Source of the DNA: Cinnamomum chago
Lineage: Eukaryota; Streptophyta; Magnoliopsida; Laurales; Lauraceae
Reading direction: 5' to 3'
NCBI GenBank assembly: GCA_038049695.1
Contig: CP142457.1
Coordinates: forward strand, 59,764,501 to 59,828,500
DNA: 64,000 nucleotides
The notes beneath the pieces are model-generated. The model did no database searches. It saw only the letters and a list, made by a program, of their open reading frames with translations, and was not told the DNA's origin. The position numbers and the translations under genes were made by a program. Below are positions 5,101-32,989 of the stretch, one piece after another. The stretch's first letter is position 1. Each line of letters opens with the position of its first letter.

Positions 5101-5300
5101 GGTGCAGCTCTCTATTGGTTCCAGCCCCCTTTGCTGGGGTAACAATAAAAATAATAACTTCCATCTCCCCTGTTTGGACATCAGTCGGAATTCATTCGTT
5201 CTCTATCGTCTGTACATGCTTTTCCTTTCAGACATTCCTCCGTGACCTCTCTCCCACTCACTTTGACCCCCACTTTTCTTTAGCTTTATACTCGTGTTCT

Positions 5301-5340
5301 CATATACCTACTAAGGGACCTTCTTTCCACATAATCATCC

Positions 5341-5404
<64 letters not shown>

Positions 5405-5440
5405 CCTACTAAGGGACCTTCTTTCCACATAATCATCCCA

Positions 5441-5491
<51 letters not shown>
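5301..5491 (+). repeat. Duplicated (TC)n microsatellite unit upstream of the PADRE gene
   Basis: A block of about 45 bp (ATATACCTACTAAGGGACC and following) plus a (TC)n run occurs twice in tandem. The runs are at about 5344-5397 and 5444-5491. The tracts lie 85-230 bp upstream of the ATG at 5576, and a TATA-like TTTATACT lies at about 5284, so they are probably in the 5' UTR. CT tracts in 5' leaders are common in plants. The repeat number is likely polymorphic. Confidence 0.75.
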
Positions 5492-5496
<5 letters not shown>

Positions 5497-5575
5497 CTCA
5501 AGATCTCGAACCAGGCATCCGAATAAGGGACTAGGGAGTGCTACTAGCTAGCCCAACAAGTGCATTGAAAGGTAG

Positions 5576-6135
5576 ATGGGAAACTGTATGGTCGGAGGCT
5601 TTGCAGAAGTAGACCAAGTTATAAAGGTAGTCACGTCTAATGGAGGCGTAATGGAGCTCTACACTCCGGTCACGGTTCAACGCATCACCGACGAGTTCCC
5701 CGGCCAAGCCATTTTCCGCAGTGACAACGTCTTCACACGGAGGCCGCTTCCGAACAACGAAGAGCTACATCCAGGAGAAATGTACTATCTACTTCCTCTC
5801 ATAGCCCAACAAGGATGCAATGAAAGAGAAGAAGGCTATCCAATGAATGGGGTGGTTGTAGCGCCTTACCGTATGTCTTCAGATAACAACGGGATTTGGA
5901 AGAGAGTTGAAACTGAAGTGTTCTCTAGGTGTAATAAGAAGGGGATTTGGAAGGTGAAGCTGGCTATCAGTCCTGATAAGCTGACAGAGATCTTGTCGCA
6001 GGAGGCGCCAACGGAGGCACTGATTGAGACCGTGAGAACGGTGGCCAAATGTGGAAGTGGATCGTTTTCTTCTCTGAGTTCAGATCAGTGGAGCCTTGCT
6101 AGCAGCAGCAGAAAGGGTTCTTTGGAGCACATGGC

Positions 6136-6139
<4 letters not shown>
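5576..6139 (+). CDS. PADRE (DUF4228) domain protein
   Basis: Single-exon gene of 187 residues. It starts MGNC, a consensus for N-myristoylation at Gly2 with a palmitoylatable Cys4, so membrane attachment is likely. The family pattern is visible: IKVV near residues 16-19, a glycine pair before a LYTP segment (28-31), FPGQAIF at 41-47, NNEELHPGEMYYLLPL at 60-75, and the conserved C-terminal block WKVKLAISPDKL (125-136) through EALIETVRTVAKCG (147-160). The tail is serine-rich. Length is normal for the family. PADRE proteins are plant-specific and several respond to pathogens or abiotic stress; their biochemical function is not established. The ATG at 5576 is chosen because it gives the canonical MGNC start and an upstream frame is closed. 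A CT repeat lies upstream and a GA repeat begins at the stop codon. Confidence 0.92.
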
Positions 6140-6187
<48 letters not shown>

Positions 6188-6208
6188 AGAAGAAGAAGAA
6201 GAAGAAGA
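6134..6208 (+). repeat. (AG)n/(AGA)n microsatellite at the PADRE stop codon
   Basis: The GA run begins with the stop codon itself (GCATAGAGAG) and continues to about 6183, then changes to an AGA/AAG trinucleotide run to about 6208. It lies in the expected 3' UTR and is complementary to the CT runs upstream of the same gene. Confidence 0.85.
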
Positions 6209-6988
6209 GGAAAGATTTCTGTTGCTTATTTCAGTAGTGTCTACATTTTATTAAATCATGGTTCGTGGGTTGGGCCATCCCGCCGTCGCTTGGTCAGGGT
6301 CATCTCTTGTTTTCCCAGAAAATAATCCTGACCATCTGATACTGGGACAGCAAGAATCCAGAGTAACCAACGGTTAGGATCACTTTTAGGAAAAAAAAAA
6401 AGGAAGAGCAACAACACTGCCTTACTGAATTGGCTTATCTCCTGATTGGTAATGGAGGTCATTACAAATTGTCCACTCAAAGTCCATGAATTTGTTAACT
6501 CGCCTGTCACTGATCTTTTTCTGCTATTTATTTGATAGTAGGTCTCATGACAGTGCTCTTATTACTTTATATGTAATTTTTGTCTAATGAAGTCTTTCCT
6601 TTTTGTTTGATATGTACTACTTGCATCATGGGAGGCATGTGGAGTTGTTCCCCTGTTTTTTAATTGTAGATGGTAGTGAGTGCCCCTTCTAATTCTGATT
6701 TCATGGAATGAATATGGGTGTTTGTTTGAAAGCTTTTCTAACAAGAATTTCATATGGTGGAAATTCCTTTCAGTAACTGTTTCCAACATTTGGAATTCTC
6801 TATTTCAATGATAAGATATTATAGAAATCAGTCTCTAAAATCTACAAATCTTACTTCCCAAAATGCTTTTATCTGGATCATTTGTGAAGCCTGAGGTCGA
6901 GAGCATTTGGCGTATTCCCAAAACCCCCAACAGGAGTTCTCGAAATTCAAGCAAACAAATACGTTCACTTTTAGTTAAGATAGAAGTA
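6209..6988. other. 3' flank and spacer, no gene seen
   Basis: Likely contains the 3' UTR and polyadenylation region of the PADRE gene. No further coding region or repeat was recognised. Confidence 0.4.
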
Positions 6989-6997
6989 TTTATAATA

Positions 6998-7120
6998 GGG
7001 CTATGCTCACACAAGCTGCAACTCACCTTAATACAAGCTGGAGCGTGTGAGGCCCAGATGAGACCCAGATGAGGCTCCAGCTTGTAATAAGGTGGGCTGC
7101 AGCTTGTGTGAGCATAGCCC
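6998..7120. mobile_element. Foldback Mutator-like MITE
   Basis: 123-bp near-palindrome. The left arm begins GGGCTATGCTCACACAAGC and the right arm ends with its complement. The 9-bp duplication TTTATAATA flanks it at 6989-6997 and 7121-7129. A 9-bp target duplication with long inverted repeats fits Mutator-type MITEs. No coding capacity. Confidence 0.85.
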
Positions 7121-7129
7121 TTTATAATA

Positions 7130-8217
7130 TGAGAACTTGGTGAGACTCATCCGAGCCGATTGGAGGTCATAAAAAGTAAAAGTCGATTTGGTGCCTTCAC
7201 ATTCTTCTTCATTCTTGATTTGGTCAGGAGTCAGGACTGAACCAATTTATGAATGTTTTTAAACCAGTCAAACTCGCCCACCATCTGAGTTGACAAGACC
7301 ACGAGAAATGTCTAAGTATCATTATCAAAGAATAATTTAAATCGTGTTAGTCTCTAATCTGAGTACAAACAATCAGTCTTCTTTTTTAACCCAAAGGTTG
7401 CTTTATTCCTTGAGGCTGCAATCATACAGATACAAGATACAGCCCTTTCATGAAAGAAATGCTTCATCACTGTTTGTTTGTGTCCTTTTTTTACTCTTCC
7501 TCTGTGTGTTTTACTCATCAAGGGCATCAAACCTCTCAGATGTTCCTCTTTATTTCGCTCCTCTTCTATTCTTTCTCCTTTATCATGGCTTTGAGGCCCT
7601 CTTTAGTAGTCTCTTGGGCCACTTTTCCAGTCTTCTTTTTGCTTGTTGGACTACATTTCCCTTTATATAAAATGAAGCATAGACTGCAAGTGCAATGTTG
7701 CGAAGAAGATGGGCCGGACCAACTTTGGAGTTCTAAACTTCTGATAGACCCAGGCTTAGCCTGCAGGTTATGAACAAACATGGTTGTATGTCCACTACTT
7801 CTCGGGCCAGGCCTGCGCTCTCTTGAAAGGCCCATTTGGATGACTGGCATGTAAGAACCCAAACAAGCCTCACCCCAATTCTGTTACTGGTTGACTCAGG
7901 CCATAAAGGCTCAAGTATTACCCAATCCATGTAGCTTCATTATAAAATATCCAATAAAAAACATGTACTTTGCGGAACTTATCTTAATATATACCCATCA
8001 TTAGGAAGGGAAACAGATCAGGTTTAATTGTTTAATCTGGGACCATAGTGTACGTGGACCTGATCCCAAATTACTAACGGAAGAGACCTAGCCAGACCCG
8101 AATTGGTCCAGCCTACAGAAACCATACTTCTAACCAAATTTAAATGTAAGATTATTCTCGAGCGCCAATAATGGACTTGACTCAGAATCTAGACCAAAAT
8201 AATTGTACACTTGATTA
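7130..8217. other. Spacer, no gene supported
   Basis: Frames of about 100 residues exist at 7344-7862 on both strands, but they overlap each other, are low in complexity and match no family I recognise. Treated as non-coding. Confidence 0.4.
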
Positions 8218-9549: not shown

Positions 9550-10320
9550 CTTGGAACTAGGGATGAAAGTGGGCCGAGCCGGGCCGAGCCAGGCTTTGAC
9601 GGGCCCTAGGCTCGGCCCTAGTATTTTTCAGTAGGCCCTAGCTCGGCCCTAGCCCTAGAGGGCCTCAAAAACCCTGGCTCGGGCTCGACCCTTATTAAGT
9701 TATGAGGCCCTAGGGCCGGCCCTTTAAGCCTGACTCGATTGAGGCCCTAGGCTCGGCTCGTGAGCTCGGCCCGTTTTATAATGACATAGTACTAGCTGAA
9801 AGAAAATATTTTCAGGAAAAAAAAATCCTGTAGGAATTCAAAGAAATCTGCATATGCAAACCAGAACAAAAAAATGGTCAAATGCATGCATTCATCCCAT
9901 ATTCTCATTCTCATAATTTGGATTGCAGCACTAAAATTAACTAAAATAAGAAAGACTTCATAAAAGCAAAGGGAGCCTAGTTCCAACACTCCATAATAGT
10001 TCAATGTTAATGTAGATTAACATCATTAAACTCCAACAATAATACAAATCAAATTAAACTCCAATAGCATCCTAGAAAAAAATAAAGTATTCGGCTAACA
10101 TCATAAAATAAAATTTTCATCATCACCAGCATCACCTATAACAACAAGAATAGAGCCTTGTTAATAAATAATAATAACAACAAAGGAAAGATTGTTTCAG
10201 AGTTACAAGACTTAAAAACTAGGCAGCCGTTGGTTGGATCCACTTTAATGATCCAACGGTTCCCACTTGACCTGAATAAATCCTTATATATAATATATGT
10301 ATTATAATATATCACTACAA

Positions 10321-10960
10321 CAGAAGACACTTTTAGCGACGTTTTTTTTCGTCGGTAAAAGTCAAAAAAACGTCGGTAAAATTTTTACCGACGTTTTTTA
10401 TTTCGTCGCTCAGACGTCGGTAAGATGACGTCGAGAAAACCCGTTACCGACGAATTAATTTTCCGTCGGCAAAAATGTAATTTTCACCGACGTTTTTACG
10501 TATTTTACCGACGGTTTTTTTCGTCGATAAAAGTAAAAAGCAAAATTATAAATAAATACCAACACTTTGCCGACGTTATTGTTTCGTCGGTAAAATTAAA
10601 AAGAAAATAAATAAAAAAATAAAACTATTTCACCGACGTTTATTTTTCGTCGGTAATATTAAATAGAAAAATTAAAGAAATAAAAAATATTTTACCGACG
10701 TTTTATTTTCGTCGGTAAAATTAAAAGGAATAAATAAAAATTAAAATAAAATATTGACCGACGTTTATTTATCGTCGGGAACATTAAAAAGAAAACATAA
10801 AAAAATAAAAATACTTTACCGACGTTTTATTTTCGTCGGTAAAATTAAATGGAATAAATGAAAATAAATTACCGACGTTTTTTTTCGTCGGTAAATATAA
10901 AATTAAAAAATATAAAACAATTGCCGACGTTTAAAAAGTTTTTTTTTTTTTTTAATACAA
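10321..10960. repeat. Left subterminal repeats of the CACTA element
   Basis: About ten loosely spaced copies of ACCGACGTTT with its partner CGTCGGTAAA, often as short inverted pairs, separated by AT-rich spacers of about 50-70 bp. In CACTA elements such motifs bind the transposase-associated protein. The spacing is irregular and there are no unique spacers of fixed size, so this is not a CRISPR array. Confidence 0.8.
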
Positions 10961-11514
10961 TTCCCTTTTTTCGTTTAAAATTTCCCTGTAAGCATGCTGA
11001 TGCACCTGTAACCTGTAATACACCTGTAACAGGAAATTAAACCTACCAAAATCATCCACAAACCTACTCACAATACAATTAATAATGAATCCAAACAAAA
11101 TCATCCACAAACATACAATTAATAATGAATCCATACAAAATCATCCACATTTTTCATCAAATCATTCATCTCCTAAAAATAACAGTACAATTAATAAAAA
11201 TTTCTAATAGTTGAATAAAATTGTCCAATATACATAAACAAATAAACTAAAAACAACAAAACGACGCCAAAGTGTGCATCCGATCCAAAAGCGTCCATCA
11301 ATCTGCAATGACAAAAACAAAAACAAAAACAAAATTAGTATCTTTTGAATTAATGAATTTATAAATAAAAGATATACATATATATATATAAACTGATTGG
11401 ATCATCCCCAATAAAAAACTGAAACTTCTGTTTGGATCCAAAGAGTTGAGGTTTCACATCATTCAAAGAACAAAAGATAAGAAAAGAAAATGAAATCTAG
11501 AACTGCATTAACCC

Positions 11515-11642
11515 TTACTCAATCAGTTGGTGCTGTACGCTGACTGGAACATCATTACTAGCACCACATAGAACCACCTCTATAATCCCATGATATAGAA
11601 ATCCAACAGTGCCATGAATATGAAGCTTTGTTATATCAATGC
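11515..11642 (-). pseudogene. Captured last exon of an unidentified gene inside the CACTA
   Basis: On the minus strand a good acceptor (TTTGTTTTTGTAG) is followed from 11642 by an open frame of about 42 residues. It begins IDITKLHIHGTVGFLYHG, continues IIEVVLCGASNDVPV and ends in a stop at 11515-11517. Codon use and the acceptor suggest a real host exon. I do not recognise the protein. Another short open minus-strand stretch lies at 11995-12105 after possible AG acceptors and may be a further piece; it could equally be chance. Confidence 0.4.
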
Positions 11643-11811
11643 CTACAAAAACAAAAGCCACAACCACCCTAAAAAGACATAAATAGCAGCAAAACTTTTT
11701 TTTTTTTTTTTGTGTGTGTGTGTGTGTGTGATAGCAATAAAACTTCTGAAATAATTTAAGATTGCAAGTTACTTGTGCATGCCAATCTTTAAGATACATT
11801 TGACAAGGCAA

Positions 11812-11835
11812 CCCCCCCCCCCCCCCCCCCCCCCC
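11812..11835. repeat. Run of 24 C
   Basis: Uninterrupted cytosine homopolymer inside the CACTA element. The minus strand carries G24 and could form a G-quadruplex. Length is uncertain in any assembly. Confidence 0.8.
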
Positions 11836-12169
11836 AACCCAACAAATCTGCGGGCTCCTTCATGGGAATCACACCCTCCATGGGAGAATAGAAGGGCTCC
11901 ACAGTGCATATGGGAATGAGGTGATTCGTGGAGATTAATCTTATTGATTTTATTATATGAAACTGAGGTTTAAAATATTTCAGGATTGAAAGCTTTAGGG
12001 CATGAGGCCCTTATCTGATAAAATTGATCCTTGACCATTGTTTGGACCAGATCTTACTCCAGCAAGCATCCAATCTATTAGTGCATTCAAAAGCTTATTT
12101 GCTCCTACTATACTAAGCATGTTCTGTGGTTGGGCATTGCATCTCTGACTGCATCACATAAACGCGTAC

Positions 12170-12783
12170 CTCCATAAACTCTTCTTTCGTTGAACTAGAT
12201 CCGTCAAGTTTACCTCCAAGAATGTAATCACATACATACATTGCCTGGTTCATTTTGGAAATGTAGAACATATAATGTTAATGATAAAAGTTACATTGCT
12301 GATGCAAATCATTACACATGACAAAAGTAACCAAAAAGGACAAAGTGCAAGATCATACCTCTGCCATGTTCTTAACAATAATATACTTCCCTGCAAAAGA
12401 TGCAGTTGCAACTGTCTCTTCATGAGAATATTTACCATGAATTATTGACGTGTACTCCCCCTTCTTGTGTTTCTCAACAGTGTTCCAGACCTTTACACAA
12501 AAATTTGGGGCAGAGAAAAATAAAATGAATGGTAGATCAAATTAACAATAAGGCCAGCAATTAACATAATCCAATAATTCATTCTGACTTCTGAATATAG
12601 TACCTTAGACACCCATGGGCAAGTTGTATCAACTATTTGTACGTTCTTTTCGCTCAAAGTCAACATCTCTTCCACAGCAGCTCCAAAAGCAGGTAAAATC
12701 ACAACATCATCCTTCTCAACAACATCAAATTGTTTCTTCCCATCCTCAATTGGAATATTCTTGACGTCCATCTCTTCTAATCT
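12170..12783 (-). pseudogene. HDR: HDR (IspH) gene fragment carried by the CACTA: three in-frame exons
   Basis: Minus-strand exons at 12783-12604, 12490-12359 and 12244-12170 (60, 44 and 25 codons) all remain in frame, with AG acceptors and GT donors in place. The protein reads [19 protein letters not shown], then [14 protein letters not shown] and [14 protein letters not shown], then [20 protein letters not shown], and finally [20 protein letters not shown]. This is the middle of plastid 4-hydroxy-3-methylbut-2-enyl diphosphate reductase, last enzyme of the MEP isoprenoid pathway. It includes the Cys of DTTCPW (an Fe-S ligand) and the HGK His region. The N-terminal part with the first cluster Cys and the C-terminal part with the last cluster Cys and the NSSNT substrate loop are missing, so it cannot be an active enzyme. 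The donor gene should lie elsewhere in the genome. Orientation is opposite to the window; any transcript would be chimeric with CACTA sequence. Confidence 0.88.
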
Positions 12784-13904
12784 CTACAACAGAAAACAAA
12801 TGGGATTATATTTTTTTTTTTTTCATCAAAAGTCAAAATCAATGTGAAAAAACATGGTCGGCAAAGATCCTTTTAGATATTTACACTTTCACTTACGTAC
12901 ATGTAAATTAGAATGACATTTAACTATGAAAATCTACACTAGCATCATATAAGGAATTTTCAATTTAACATAGTCCATGACAGATCTATTCCCATATGAT
13001 GGCGATCACTGAAGTCCACTCCTATTACTCTCTAGCACAAAAATCTAACTCAGATTTTTCTCACTGAAGTCCTTGTTCTTAGATTTTCTTCATTATTAAC
13101 AGTTGTGGTATCATGATTAGAATAATTAGGCCAGGGTTTTCCTGTTTGACAGTTAACATGGATACAGGAGCTTCAGAATGTGGAGTAAGGAATGAAGAAA
13201 TATGCAATCGACACTATAAGAATAGGTTTCTAAGAAAAAGGCCCTACTCTTGATAAAGATAAGTTACATCGGCCACCTTTTGAAAACTCTGTCATTCCAC
13301 AAGTACTAGTCCAATTGTAATAAGCTTTGGCTGATGAAAATCAGCAAGTTATGAGGCCCATTGTTGAGTTTCTCACATGTTTTACATAAAGATTAACTTT
13401 CTTTTGTTAGTTTTTTTCCAAGAGAATTAACATGCATGTGATCTAACCCTAGTCACTTGACTCAGCAACCTATATTGAACCGAATCTGGATTTTCAGGAG
13501 CTTGACAAAGTGGAACAAGCAGATGAACAGACCAGGTATTTGTGTATGCCTCTTATAATTTACTTTCACAATGAACAGACCCACATGTATGTATATAGAT
13601 GAACAGACCAGGCTTGAGCCTGGAATCAAAGTTTCTGAAAAAAAAGGGGAAAAACGATAACGATGCACTAAAGTACGGAGAAAAACAACAATCAATGGAA
13701 GAAGAAGATTTAGAAAAACAGAGAGCAGTTGCAGCAGATTTAGAAAAAAAAAAAGGGGAAAAACAATGGAAGAAGAAGAAGAAACCGTGTACCTGGCACC
13801 GGAGAAAGCGTGGGTGGGGCCTGGGCTCCGACTGGGCATGGCACCAGCGACTGGTGAGTGGCGATCTGTTGGCAAGTGTGGTGATGGCTTCGCTGGACCT
13901 TGAG

Positions 13905-14440
13905 CAGAGTGAGAGAGAGAGTGAGAGAGAGAGCGAGAGAGAGAGAGAGAGAGCAGATCGAGAGCGAGAGAGAGAGAGAGAGAGATAATGTGCAGATTGA
14001 GAGCGAGAGAGAGAGAGAGAGATAATGTGCAGATCGAGAGAGCGAGAGCGATAGAGAGAGAGAGCGAGAGAGACAGAGCAGAGCGAGAGAGAGAGAGAGA
14101 CAGAGCAGAGCGAGAGAGAGCAGAGAGCGAGCGAGAGTGAGAGAGAGATCGAGTGAGGGAGCGAGAGAGAGAGAGATCGCAGTGAGGGAAAAAGAGGGGA
14201 AAAAAGAGTGAGGGAAAAAGAGGGAAAAGAGAAGAAGAGAGAGAGAGAGAGCCAAGGGAGAGGGGGAGTGGTGCGCAGGGCGCCACAGAGGAGGAAGCAG
14301 GGGAGAGGGAGAGGAACAGTGCAGGAAGAAGAGAAGAGAGGGAGAGAGGGGAGAGGGGAGGAAGAAGAAGAGAAGGAGGGAGGGAGGGAGGAGAGCAGAC
14401 AGAGAGATTGGGAACAAGGGAGAGAGAGAGAGAGGTGAGC
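13905..14440. repeat. GA-rich low-complexity block in the CACTA
   Basis: Hundreds of bases of (GA)n interrupted by GAGCGAGA and GCAGAG units. It is followed to about 14,800 by a GC-richer part with a tandem repeat of about 33 bp around GATTTGGGCGATTCACGCGG (from about 14570 and 14605). Long Ser/Leu-rich minus-strand frames here are a by-product of the CT repeat and are not annotated as genes. Confidence 0.75.
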
Positions 14441-14830
14441 GGTGTGTGCAAAGTGCAGGAAGAGGGAGGGGTGTACCTGGTGCAGGGGAGGCGTCCGGCG
14501 GCGCGAGGAGGACGATGAAGGCTCTGCGGGCGTCCGGGGGCTGCTGCAGTGGTCGTGCTCCTGGGACTGGCGATTTGGGCGATTCACGCGGAGTGAGGGA
14601 GGGAGATTTGGGCGATTCACGCGGAGTGAGGGAAAAGAGGGATTGGAGAAGAAAAGGGGCGATTCGCGCGACTTCCGGTGGTGGGAGAGACAGCGAGCGA
14701 GGGAGAGAGAAAGAGATCGACAGAGGGCGGGAGAGGGTTTTCGCGCAGCGGGAGTGAGAGAAGAGTGAAAAGAGAGTTAGGGAAAAGAGAGGAAAAAAGG
14801 GGTTTTGGCGCGGGGGAGGGAAAAAAAAAA

Positions 14831-15390
14831 GGCGTTTACCGACGTTAAAAATTCGTCTCCAAAAGCATAAAAAACGTCGGTAAAATCTTTATTAATTTTT
14901 TTAATAACGTTTAGAATTTTTGCCGACGTTTTAAAAACGTCGGTAAAAGTAATAAAACGTCGGTAAATATTAATTTTACCGACGTATTAAAAACCGTCGG
15001 CAAAATGTTTTAACATTATTTCCTTTTATACGAAAATAGTTCTCATTTTACTGACGAAAATAAAACGTCGGTAAAATGGTCTTTACCGACGTTCTTGAAG
15101 AAAACGTCGGCGAATATGAGTTTTACCGACTTTTTAAAAACGTCGGTAAAAGTTTTAGAAATTTTTTACTTTTTATTGCCGACGAAATTTATAACGTCGG
15201 TAAAATTGTAGTTTACCGACGTTTCCAATAAAATACGTCGGTAAAAATTAACTTTTACCGACGAATTGTTTAGACGTCGGCAAAAGTTCACTATTTACCG
15301 ACGAATTTAAAAAACATCACTAAAAATATACTTTTACCGACGAATTTTAAAAACGTGGCTAAAAAACGTCGCTAAAAGTGCAACTTCTTG
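14831..15390. repeat. Right subterminal repeats of the CACTA element
   Basis: Dense TTTACCGACG and AACGTCGGTAAAA motifs up to the right terminus, mirroring those at 10321-10960. They confirm that both ends belong to one element. Confidence 0.8.
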
Positions 15391-15599
15391 TAGTGTATGC
15401 AGGCCCTAGGGCTTACGAGCCGGGCTTCATCAAGCCCTAGCTCGGCCCTTTTAAGCAAACGGGCCTCCTACTAGGCCCTAGCTCGGCTCTTTTGTCTTTT
15501 GAGCTGAGCTCGGGCCAGCCTATAACGGGCCGTCCGCGGGCGGCCCTATGACGGCCCGGCCCACTTTCACCCCTACTTGGAACCCAATGAAATTTGAGT

Positions 15600-16316: not shown

Positions 16317-16562
16317 CACGACTCCCATGTAATAGCTAGCTTAGACTGGGGATCCGGACTCCTTATATCAAATTCTTTTCGTGAATCCGGTGAAAGTGAA
16401 AGAGAGATGCTTACAGCTGGATTACACAAATCATTCGTGGCCCACTGTTGGATAATTCAGTCTACGGTCTCAGATAAAACACAGTTTTCTCCCCAAACCC
16501 AGTAAAGTAGATATAGACGATGGATCCTTCCTGAAGAGATAAAAAGGAAATGAAATCTCTTA

Positions 16563-16668
16563 GCCACGTGTATGCCCAGAAAGTTCCACTTCACAACCCC
16601 TCGACCCTTCACGATGCCTCTACTCTGTTCTCAACTTCTCTCTCTCTCTCCCTCCCTCTCTATAAAAT
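16563..16668 (+). promoter_or_regulatory. sHSP promoter: G-box, heat shock element, TATA box
   Basis: A G-box/ABRE core CACGTG lies at about 16565-16570. A perfect inverted heat-shock-element pair, AGAAAGTTCC, lies at about 16579-16588, followed by CACTTC, which adds a third imperfect unit. TATAAAAT lies at 16661-16668 after a CT-rich run, about 85 bp before the ATG. This is the arrangement expected for a heat-inducible plant promoter with HSF binding just upstream of TATA. Confidence 0.7.
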
Positions 16669-16752
16669 CCCTGCACTCTCTCTTCCATCATCACAAGCAA
16701 TCTGCAAATACAAAATCCATAACCTTCGTCACTTTCAGTAGCAATAACAAAC

Positions 16753-17563
16753 ATGTCAACCTGCAGCAGCGCCAGCTCCATCTGCTCTCCTTCTTCATCT
16801 GCTATCTTTTCACGTCATACCCGACATATCAGCTCCCCTGCTTTGGTGTTCATCCCATCCAACGGTGGTCATCCTTGCACGTACAGGGTCCTGAAACCAT
16901 CCCGACTGTACGTTCTAAAGCCAAAGGCCACAGCAGAGCAGAAAGACACTGCGATCGATGTGAAGAAGGACGAAAAGAAAGGCAAGGAGGTAGAGAGGAA
17001 GCCTCGTCGCTCGCCCTTGGAGATCTCTCCCTTGGGTAAAATCTAATCATCTCTCTCTCACTTCCATTTTTAGGCTCTTCATATGGTACTCGTACTGACA
17101 AATGGGTGGGTCGGGTTTGAAATAAATTGAACATACGCTGGACCCACTCTCTCCTATGAGGACTATGAAGCAGATGCTGGACTCAGTGGACCGGCTGTTC
17201 GAGGACGCGTTGACGTTCCCCGGTTCGAACCGGGCGGTGGGCGAGATCCGGTCGCCGTGGGATATTAAAGAGAACGAGAAGGAGCTGAAGATGAGATTCG
17301 ACATGCCGGGGCTGTCGAAGGAGGAGGTGAAGGTGTATGTAGAAGACGATATGTTGGTGATAAAAGGAGAGCATAACCAGGAGAAGGAAGGAGGAGAGGA
17401 GTCATGGTCGAGCAGGAGTTCGAGCTCTTACAACGTGAGGCTGCTGCTTCCTGATAACTGCGAGAAGGATAAGATCAAAGCGGATCTGAAGAATGGGGTG
17501 TTGCTTATTTCGATTCCAAAGAGGGAGGTAGAACACAAGGTTTTTGATGTTCAGATAAACTGA
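16753..17563 (+). CDS. HSP21: Chloroplast small heat shock protein (HSP21-like), two exons
   Basis: Exon 1 (16753 to about 17035) encodes about 94 residues: a Ser/Arg-rich plastid transit peptide, then a charged linker ending [11 protein letters not shown]. Exon 2 ends at 17563 and begins near 17138 with LDPLSP, followed by [17 protein letters not shown]. That is the methionine-rich amphipathic helix unique to plastid sHSPs. Then comes the alpha-crystallin domain: [53 protein letters not shown], with the terminal [16 protein letters not shown]. Total length about 237 residues, normal for HSP21. It acts as an ATP-independent chaperone in the stroma. The exon 1 donor is GGGTAAAAT at 17035/17036. 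The acceptor is odd: no AG exists between the TTTTTAG at 17071-17073, which gives a stop and a 38-nt intron, and the ATG at 17156. Either splicing is non-canonical, or the allele is damaged, or there is a base error near ACATACGCTGG (17131-17141). Confidence 0.85.
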
Positions 17564-20857: not shown

Positions 20858-21053
20858 TCCTGTACATATAATTGCAAATCCAAACACATGGCTTCTCAAC
20901 TTCCAACAATCTAATTCCTTTCTTCAACCTCATTGACTCTGAAAATTTGGATTACAGAATTATCAGTACAAGAAGTCAAGAACAAGGAAACAAGAAGTCT
21001 ACTATGTCAGGCGGGTCAGCTGTACAAAAAAGGTTAAATAAGGAGCATAAATT

Positions 21054-21542
21054 GCTGGATCTGTATATAGGATTTGGGTGGTGAACACAAGCGCAAATCG
21101 GATTAAAGATTAGGAGAGACAAGTATGAGGTCCTCATTTCTAAAAGACATGTCTGGGCTATAATTACAGTAAGATATACTCAATTAACATGGAATGACTG
21201 TAATTCTATTAATGTTGCTGGATCTGCATATAGGATTTGGGTGGTGAACACAAGCGCAAATCGGATTAAAGATTAGGAGAGACAGGTATGAGGTCCTCAT
21301 TTCTAAAAGACATGTCTGGGCTATAATTACAGTAAGATATACTCAATTAACATGGAATGACTGTAATTCTATTAATGTTGCTGGATCTGCATATAGGATT
21401 TGGGTGGTGAACACAAGCGCAAATCGGATTAAAGATTAGGAGAGACAAGTATGAGGTCATCATTTCTAAAAGACATGTCTGGGCTGTAATTACAGTAAGA
21501 TATACTCAATTAACATCGAATGACTGTAATTCTATTAATGTA
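21054..21542. repeat. Three tandem copies of a 163-bp unit
   Basis: The unit starting GCTGGATCTG (21054, 21216, 21380) and ending TAATTCTATTAATGT is repeated three times with only a few differences. Duplicate B has a single copy at about 25479-25715, broken by a MITE. Confidence 0.85.
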
Positions 21543-32174: not shown

Positions 32175-32873
32175 TCAACTCCTCCCTATTCTTCTTTCAA
32201 TATTGTTCCAAGCTGTTGGGAAAATTGGGAGGGGGGGAGCAAGAACGAAAACAGCAAACATGGATTTCTCTGCAGCAATCTCCAAATCATCAGTGGACAA
32301 AGGCGAATCAGACAAAGGAAATTCACCCACAACTTCAAACCCCTCTCCCTTCAACACCTCCAAGCAATCCCCCGTCTGTGACCGAATCTCGCTCGCGGAC
32401 CAGACCCTTGTCTCTCTCCCACACACCCTTTTCAGTGTCTTAGCCAGCGCGGGCATCTCCAACGGGTCGTAGAAGACATCAGACATGAGAACAAGGTCCA
32501 CCTCGCCGACCCATGGCTCGTCCGAACCCCAGACCAGCTCACGCACCTCGACTCGGTCGTTGAACCCGTTGGCCTCGACGCTGCTGTGTAGGCCAGGTAG
32601 AAGGGGTGCAATGTCGGTCAAGAAGACATGGGCTGCGCCCAATGTAGCTGCCATGAGCCCAGGTAGACCCGTCCCAGCGCCCAATTCGAGGACCGTTTTG
32701 GATTGGAGCTGGTACTCGGCTAGGCCCTGGGTCACAATCCAGTTGGCGAGATGTAGGGCTGAGTCCCAGACCCAGGAACCGGTGAGGGCTCTTCCTGTGT
32801 TGGGATCGCATACATCTTCTTGTTCGTGGATTACCAGCTTCTTGCCTACAATCTCTACTTCTTTCTTACCCAT
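32175..32873 (-). CDS. METTL21-type SAM-dependent protein-lysine methyltransferase
   Basis: Intron-less gene of 232 residues. Class I methyltransferase fold of the Methyltransf_16 family. Residues 29-48 (ALTGSWVWDSALHLANWIV) are the family's N-terminal W-x-W-like segment. Motif I is VLELGAGTGLPGL at 61-73 (SAM-binding glycine loop), the acidic end of strand 2 is LTDI at 85-88, and SDVFYD at 131-136 carries the DxxY/F signature of lysine methyltransferases. Animal and yeast relatives methylate Hsp70, eEF1A or other translation factors, probably in the cytosol; the plant substrate cannot be told from sequence. Length and motifs are complete, with no breaks. A TATATATTC box lies on the minus strand at about 32968-32977, about 95 bp upstream, with a CT-rich leader. 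The 3' flank carries copy C of the local duplication. Confidence 0.9.
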   Translation of the reverse strand: MGKKEVEIVGKKLVIHEQEDVCDPNTGRALTGSWVWDSALHLANWIVTQGLAEYQLQSKTVLELGAGTGLPGLMAATLGAAHVFLTDIAPLLPGLHSSVEANGFNDRVEVRELVWGSDEPWVGEVDLVLMSDVFYDPLEMPALAKTLKRVCGRETRVWSASEIRSQTGDCLEVLKGEGFEVVGEFPLSDSPLSTDDLEIAAEKSMFAVFVLAPPLPIFPTAWNNIERRIGRS

Positions 32874-32989
32874 CTCTCTCTCTCTGTGTACTTTCTTGGT
32901 CTCTCTGTGTATTCTCTCTCTGTTTCTGTATTTTATTGGTTATGTATGGTTGAATGGATGGAGAATGGAATATATACTACACGTGCAAG

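Follow-up and report, generated by a model that had tools for sequence, protein, structure and literature searches.

In a 64,000-nucleotide stretch of the Cinnamomum chago genome (GenBank assembly GCA_038049695.1, contig CP142457.1, positions 59,764,501 to 59,828,500 of the forward strand; hereafter the window), a complete CACTA transposon carries exons 3-5 of HDR (IspH/LytB), a gene of the methylerythritol phosphate (MEP) pathway. The segment was captured from an unlinked HDR gene, occurs in ten copies of the element family, and lies in the window in a copy that has lost the transposase region. With high probability the locus is explained by a capture of HDR DNA during the repair of a break within the element, amplification of the loaded element, an internal deletion, and carriage of the HDR exons as a passenger.

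The window element and its HDR cargo

The element is 5083 bp long and spans window positions 10313-15395 (Table 1). Its termini read CACTACAACAG...CTTGTAGTG and are flanked on both sides by TAT; the outer 8 nt (CACTACAA) are exact at both ends, and the terminal 35 nt are complementary at 29 of 35 positions. These CACTA terminal inverted repeats (TIRs) and the 3-bp target-site duplication (TSD) are characteristic of the CACTA (En/Spm) superfamily, as are subterminal repeats that run in both directions. The leftmost 620 bp contain 17 copies of the motif ACCGACG/CGTCGGT and the rightmost 570 bp contain 14; the motif is absent from the 3.9 kb between the ends and is found three times in the remaining window, so that all 31 motif copies of the element lie inside its ends. 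Single-base shuffles of both ends (n = 1000) gave a mean of 0.016 motif copies and a maximum of 1. When the transposase orientation is counted as forward, the left terminus is the 3′ end of the element and the right terminus its 5′ end. In the 1.06-Gb assembly of 14 contigs, the flanks joined with a single TAT (215 nt) match at least 40 places at 98-99% identity; 38 of the matches listed are full length and two extend over 213 and 214 nt, and the number is a lower bound, as 40 of 382 candidates were scored. Because this empty site is a repeat present in at least 40 copies, both ends belong to a single insertion, and the element jumped whole into a high-copy repeat.

Between the ends, the three HDR exons lie on the minus strand, comprise 60 + 44 + 25 = 129 codons, are stop-free and all in phase 0, and are bordered by intact AG acceptors and GT donors; Pfam LYTB matches the 129 residues (E = 2.6e-22). 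The captured stretch exceeds the exon span that was initially given: by BLAST, window 11739-13051 aligns with the HDR gene on contig C11 at 96.9% identity, introns covered, and since the introns are included at this identity, the alignment marks the segment as a genomic capture and not a retro-copy. A genome-wide Pfam LYTB search (26 of 26 candidates scored) returned 24 matches, four of them on C11, where they cover exons 3 and 4 together with the adjoining parts of the protein on both sides. The others are pairs (exons 3 and 4) at ten additional places, of which the window is one. A DNA search recovered the same ten places plus C11, with exon 5 present in 10/10. No locus but C11 was found to have HDR exons beyond the captured set, and by eye the remaining exons can be read there in order. 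The exons of the copies are identical to this donor at 386 of 387 positions.

These results bear out the initial annotation of the window, which had described, from the letters alone, CACTA termini with a TAT duplication and subterminal repeats (now confirmed by the ends as read, the 31 motif copies, and the empty site) around a transduplicated HDR segment of three consecutive exons with intact frame and GT-AG borders (now traced, introns included, to C11). It had proposed looking for a full HDR gene, for high intron identity, and for further copies with the same cargo, and all three were found (C11, 96.9% over the segment, and ten places). It had also named two findings that would speak against it, the rest of HDR at this locus and ends from two different elements; the rest of HDR is on C11, and the empty site is that of one element. 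An additional host fragment, suspected at 11040-11740 from a C-terminal-like open reading frame (ORF), was rejected; the stretch is treated as the element's own sequence because its matches include HDR-free copies and its form in the C8 copy has no Pfam match.

Table 1. Features of the CACTA element, in window coordinates
Feature	Position	Strand	Basis
Target-site duplication TAT, left	10310..10312		read beside element end
CACTA element, complete, non-autonomous, 5083 bp	10313..15395		termini, TSD, family copies, empty site
Left terminus and subterminal repeats	10313..10932	+	17 motif copies, repeat families
Element's own 3′ region, common to many family copies including HDR-free ones	11040..11738		53 matches listed (40 of 660 candidates scored)
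Left junction of the capture, with AAAACTT as microhomology of element and HDR donor, in all 10 HDR copies	11739..11745		junction comparison
Captured stretch of HDR genomic DNA, exons 5-3 with adjoining parts of introns 5 and 2	11746..13051	-	96.9% identity to donor C11
HDR exon 5, 25 codons, phase 0	12170..12244	-	translation and splice-site check
HDR exon 4, 44 codons, phase 0, differing from donor by one synonymous change	12359..12490	-	donor comparison
HDR exon 3, 60 codons, phase 0	12604..12783	-	translation and splice-site check
Internal-deletion scar (transposase region gone): 18 unassigned bp, then inverted piece of larger element (C10 11037-10963)	13052..13144		alignment to C10
Element 5′ region, GA/CT-rich, brought against HDR segment by deletion	13145..14825	-	comparison with larger copies
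Right terminus and subterminal repeats	14826..15395	-	14 motif copies
Target-site duplication TAT, right	15396..15398		read beside element end

Capture junctions, amplification and internal deletion

The left capture junction, with its 7-nt microhomology AAAACTT, is identical in 10/10 HDR copies. Four HDR-free copies read at the capture site (L055-L058) all keep the uninterrupted sequence AAAACTT-AT-TATAGAGTGAAAAGCC, with AAAACTT-AT-TATAGAGTG likewise uninterrupted in 4/4. The HDR copy on C8 has the same flanks, with HDR starting within the shared AAAACTT and a filler, GTTGCACTGAATCCTCTC, preceding TATAGAGTG. This filler of 18-20 nt repeats the 20-nt TTGCACTGAATCCTCTCTAT, its last three nucleotides being shared with the resumed element, and the source TTGCACTGAATCCTCTCTAT lies approximately 50 bp downstream in the element in all four HDR-free copies. 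Compared with these four uninterrupted copies, at most 2-3 bp of the element were lost at the junction. Gap filling predicts microhomology or filler at the breakpoints and uninterrupted related copies, all of which are present; a tandem fusion predicts host DNA between two formerly separate elements, whereas the element is continuous, the donor unlinked, and the filler templated. Microhomology on one side together with templated filler on the other thus supports break repair with template switching over tandem fusion. Furthermore, 16 fixed differences from C11 are common to all ten HDR copies, and these and the shared left junction indicate a single capture followed by amplification. One HDR-free copy, on C12, additionally carries, by eye, a tRNA-like insertion with a poly-A tail (L058:180-360 approximately) that resembles a short interspersed nuclear element.

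All ten HDR copies were retrieved in 10-kb pieces, and three besides the window copy were completed: those on C10 (14,627 bp, TSD TAT/TAT), C3 (C3b; 14,904 bp, GAG/GAG), and C8 (16,101 bp, AGC/AGC). The six others, measured from a right end located by pattern, are 13.8-14.9 kb long, which places the nine copies outside the window at 13.8-16.1 kb; an HDR-free relative, C3a, is 10,591 bp long (ATA/ATA). Genome-wide, 226 right ends of the family were found when up to two mismatches were allowed (115 forward and 111 reverse), and the reversed pattern gave 0 matches. At C5:6337426-6394110, four perfect right ends lie on the same strand at spacings of 17-20 kb and look like a local cluster or a segmental duplication. 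The C3b copy contains a 737-aa ORF with Transposase_21 (E = 3.2e-100), DUF4218, and Transpos_assoc, i.e., a tnp2-type transposase as in CACTA (En/Spm) elements, and another ORF with DUF4216; the remainder of DUF4218 is found in an ORF of C10. Among the three completed large copies, the long transposase ORF is intact in C3b and broken in C10 and C8. The transposase ORFs are on the minus strand, as is HDR.

The window copy aligns to the C10 element except at the deletion, up to which it matches into the HDR segment; past the scar, it resumes with the other end of the element. It is therefore an internally deleted derivative of the larger transposase-bearing elements, with scrambled filler at the deletion, and would probably need transposase provided in trans to move. 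The term Pack-type, used in the initial annotation, suits this copy, which holds host coding DNA (exons 3-5 of the C11 gene) inside its TIRs and no transposase region, and does not suit the family, as the three large HDR relatives retain transposase ORFs, intact or broken.

The history would then be as follows. A CACTA element was broken at one internal point, and the repair would have filled the break with a copy of approximately 2.0 kb of the unlinked HDR gene, reaching from within intron 2 to within intron 5, beginning at the shared AAAACTT and ending by a template switch that copied again approximately 20 nt from approximately 50 bp downstream. The element, bearing both HDR and transposase, would subsequently have spread to at least ten sites; one descendant would have lost the transposase region by a deletion filled with inverted sequence and, in this form, inserted into the high-copy repeat at the window position. 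Intron divergence between the copies and the donor is 1.9-2.7%, which, at plant substitution rates, would correspond to very roughly 0.7-2.0 million years.

The capture site has also held other cargo. Five HDR copies (C3b, those on C6 and C12, and two on C4) have a shortened filler, after which comes other sequence; two pieces of it match C2:73241417-73241901 and C2:73242035-73242108 at 96% identity. Three HDR-free copies (C3a, C11:20.39M, and C4:51.64M) keep the C2 sequence and have, in the place of HDR, the 5′ end of a cytochrome P450 gene (its upstream region plus the first 94 codons; Pfam p450, E = 2.7e-7), the donor of which is at C9:68454886-68455788 (97% identity). The fragment matching C2 (L053:9068-10000; C2:73241417-73242108, 96%) is thus common to five HDR and three P450 copies; the P450 piece, at L054:133-1135 in C3a (C3:5168132-5169134), is 100% identical among its three copies. 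Given the truncated filler, the simplest order would be HDR, then C2, then P450 replacing HDR.

Possible exon constraint and competing explanations

Four observations weigh against the proposed history. The right junction is complete in one of ten copies (C8), partial in five, and absent in four, the window copy included, presumably owing to later deletions. The HDR-free element C3a has no empty capture site and contains the P450 and C2 sequences there. TSDs at both ends were read in four of the ten HDR copies, and the other six are known by the position of the right end. Finally, the invariance of the exons across copies (P approximately 0.015) is somewhat unexpected for a pure passenger.

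This last point bears on the first alternative, that selection keeps the HDR exons, either for a chimeric product useful to the element or the host or as camouflage, the latter following an idea on epigenetic conflict, outlined in the cited account, in which identity to an essential gene limits silencing (PMC8978399). Among the ten copies, 0/387 exon sites vary vs. 11/839 intron sites (binomial P = 0.015, Fisher 0.021), and one exon difference (synonymous) from the donor is fixed vs. 15 in the introns (P = 0.019, Fisher 0.029), a contrast to which the donor gene's own constraint contributes. In three other stretches of the element, none of them in the subterminal repeats, 1.5-2.8% of sites are variable, and all three exons, each in phase 0-0, share the strand of the transposase. 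The counts exclude homopolymers, the uneven border of the deletion, and the final bases of the HDR alignment, and the comparison omits the left subterminal repeats (13.6% variable, repeats that align unreliably) and a DUF4216 control (0 usable columns). The tests were, however, picked after inspection of the data, concern few events, and carry uncorrected P values; the copy at C5:30.24M (L010) carries AT instead of GT at the splice donor of exon 4, so that the copies differ in their ability to splice; and the HDR-free sister sublineage holds the P450 piece between the same element parts, which makes HDR dispensable for amplification. The invariance is thus suggestive of constraint, not proof of it, and maintenance by selection appears unlikely. 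A broader version, in which the internal position is a recurrent cargo slot refilled by break repair with pieces of unlinked host genes and selection holds the HDR exons at donor identity as a silencing shield or a product, seems no less doubtful. Intact splicing and the lack of stops had initially been taken as signs of recent capture or retention; the splice borders and frames are indeed intact, but open frames alone are weak proof of recent capture or selection where even the introns have diverged so little. Most probably, the HDR exons are carried as a passenger.

A fusion of two neighboring CACTA elements, in which the two undergo complementary terminal deletions and their outer halves become joined with host DNA between them, is a published CACTA mechanism, reported in the cited text for Arabidopsis Pack-CACTA (PMC13317346). 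Here, it would need two independent deletions that meet almost exactly, to within the 2-3 bp missing at the junction, and one border holds filler templated by the element. Moreover, when the 10-kb donor locus was compared by BLAST with the ten copies once oriented, matches fell only within donor 5144-7145, element ends not being searched for separately. Fusion is accordingly regarded as improbable, and repair copying remains the preferred origin of the junctions.

A further alternative is that antisense or hairpin RNA from the element silences HDR; small RNAs from an antisense or chimeric transcript had been suggested initially. Any small RNAs would match the donor, given the near-identity of the exons. 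Because HDR and the transposase share one orientation, a transcript made by the element itself would nonetheless be sense, and antisense as the default transcript was rejected. HDR is in the transposase orientation in the elements read, and exons 3 and 4 are on one strand at each of the ten places, with no inverted HDR pair. Antisense RNA would need transcription from outside, and the nearest listed ORFs on the right (16554-17039 and 17126-17563) are directed away. Silencing of HDR by this route is very improbable. Spliced chimeric sense RNAs are possible, judging from the exon borders: by analogy with Tgm-Express1 of soybean, the phase-0 exons could be spliced into an element transcript. A chance assembly of unrelated CACTA ends, or an HDR gene or decayed paralogue in place, has nothing found in its favor and can practically be discounted, in view of the empty site with one TSD at no fewer than 40 places, the left capture border common to ten copies, and the missing HDR exons on C11.

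Among the neighbors of the element, the nearest listed ORF of at least 130 aa on the left has a PADRE domain (5576-6139, E = 1.7e-20). On the right, the ORF at 17126-17563, approximately 1.7 kb away, encodes an HSP20 small heat-shock protein (E = 3.1e-30), and that at 16554-17039 may, by eye, be its first exon. Farther along are a 163-bp tandem repeat in three copies (21052-21541, 98% matches) and an ORF of the lysine-methyltransferase family (Methyltransf_16, 32175-32939, minus strand, E = 2.1e-29).

Relation to known captures

Pack-CACTA, or Pack-TYPE, elements are described in the cited portion of the literature as non-autonomous CACTA elements with captured coding DNA between TIRs that transduplicate host exons (PMC8903248). 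The window element likewise moves host exons between its TIRs; by contrast with that description, relatives with transposase ORFs share the cargo, the window copy having lost that region, and the junction indicates repair copying and not tandem fusion. Soybean Tgm-Express1, as presented in the excerpted report, is a CACTA element with five host fragments in an F3H intron, the exons of which are spliced into chimeric RNAs (PMC1947982). Both elements hold host gene fragments including introns, whereas one host fragment was identified in the window element, which lies in a repeat outside the listed ORFs and for which chimeric RNAs are a possibility. In grapevine, Cactavine-5, according to the cited passages, has a PPR fragment downstream of and antisense to the transposase ORF in two copies (PMC2528002); the HDR fragment is also downstream of the transposase ORF and was amplified with the element, but it is sense, present in ten copies, and accompanied by preserved pre-capture copies.

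For animal Pack-TIRs, a gap-filling and template-switch model was argued, in the part of the study cited, in which an internal break is repaired from other genomic DNA (PMC8277862). Breakpoint microhomology, and the amplification of some elements by later transposition, are shared with that system, whereas the present case is a plant CACTA element with a donor on another contig and element-templated filler at the second junction. Maize Ds elements with internal sequence replaced by filler DNA, some from intron-containing genes, are similar in this respect, although they belong to the hAT superfamily; the cited section calls their capture step unknown and suggests errors of break-repair replication (PMC3260210). 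Capture by Chenopodium CACTA elements was also reported, as far as the cited text extends (PMC8978399), and a 2026 review considers it possible, in the portion cited, that an as yet undiscovered mechanism lets DNA elements take up unlinked genes (PMC13317346). No paper joining "hydroxymethylbutenyl diphosphate reductase," "transposon," and "CACTA" was found in the literature searched under that enzyme name only.

The contribution is a well-resolved case of capture and not a new kind. A single assembly contains the donor, copies from before and after the capture, and both scars, which together indicate templated break repair, and it furthermore offers ten defined loci for the sense-RNA, small-RNA, and camouflage ideas on a gene of the MEP pathway.

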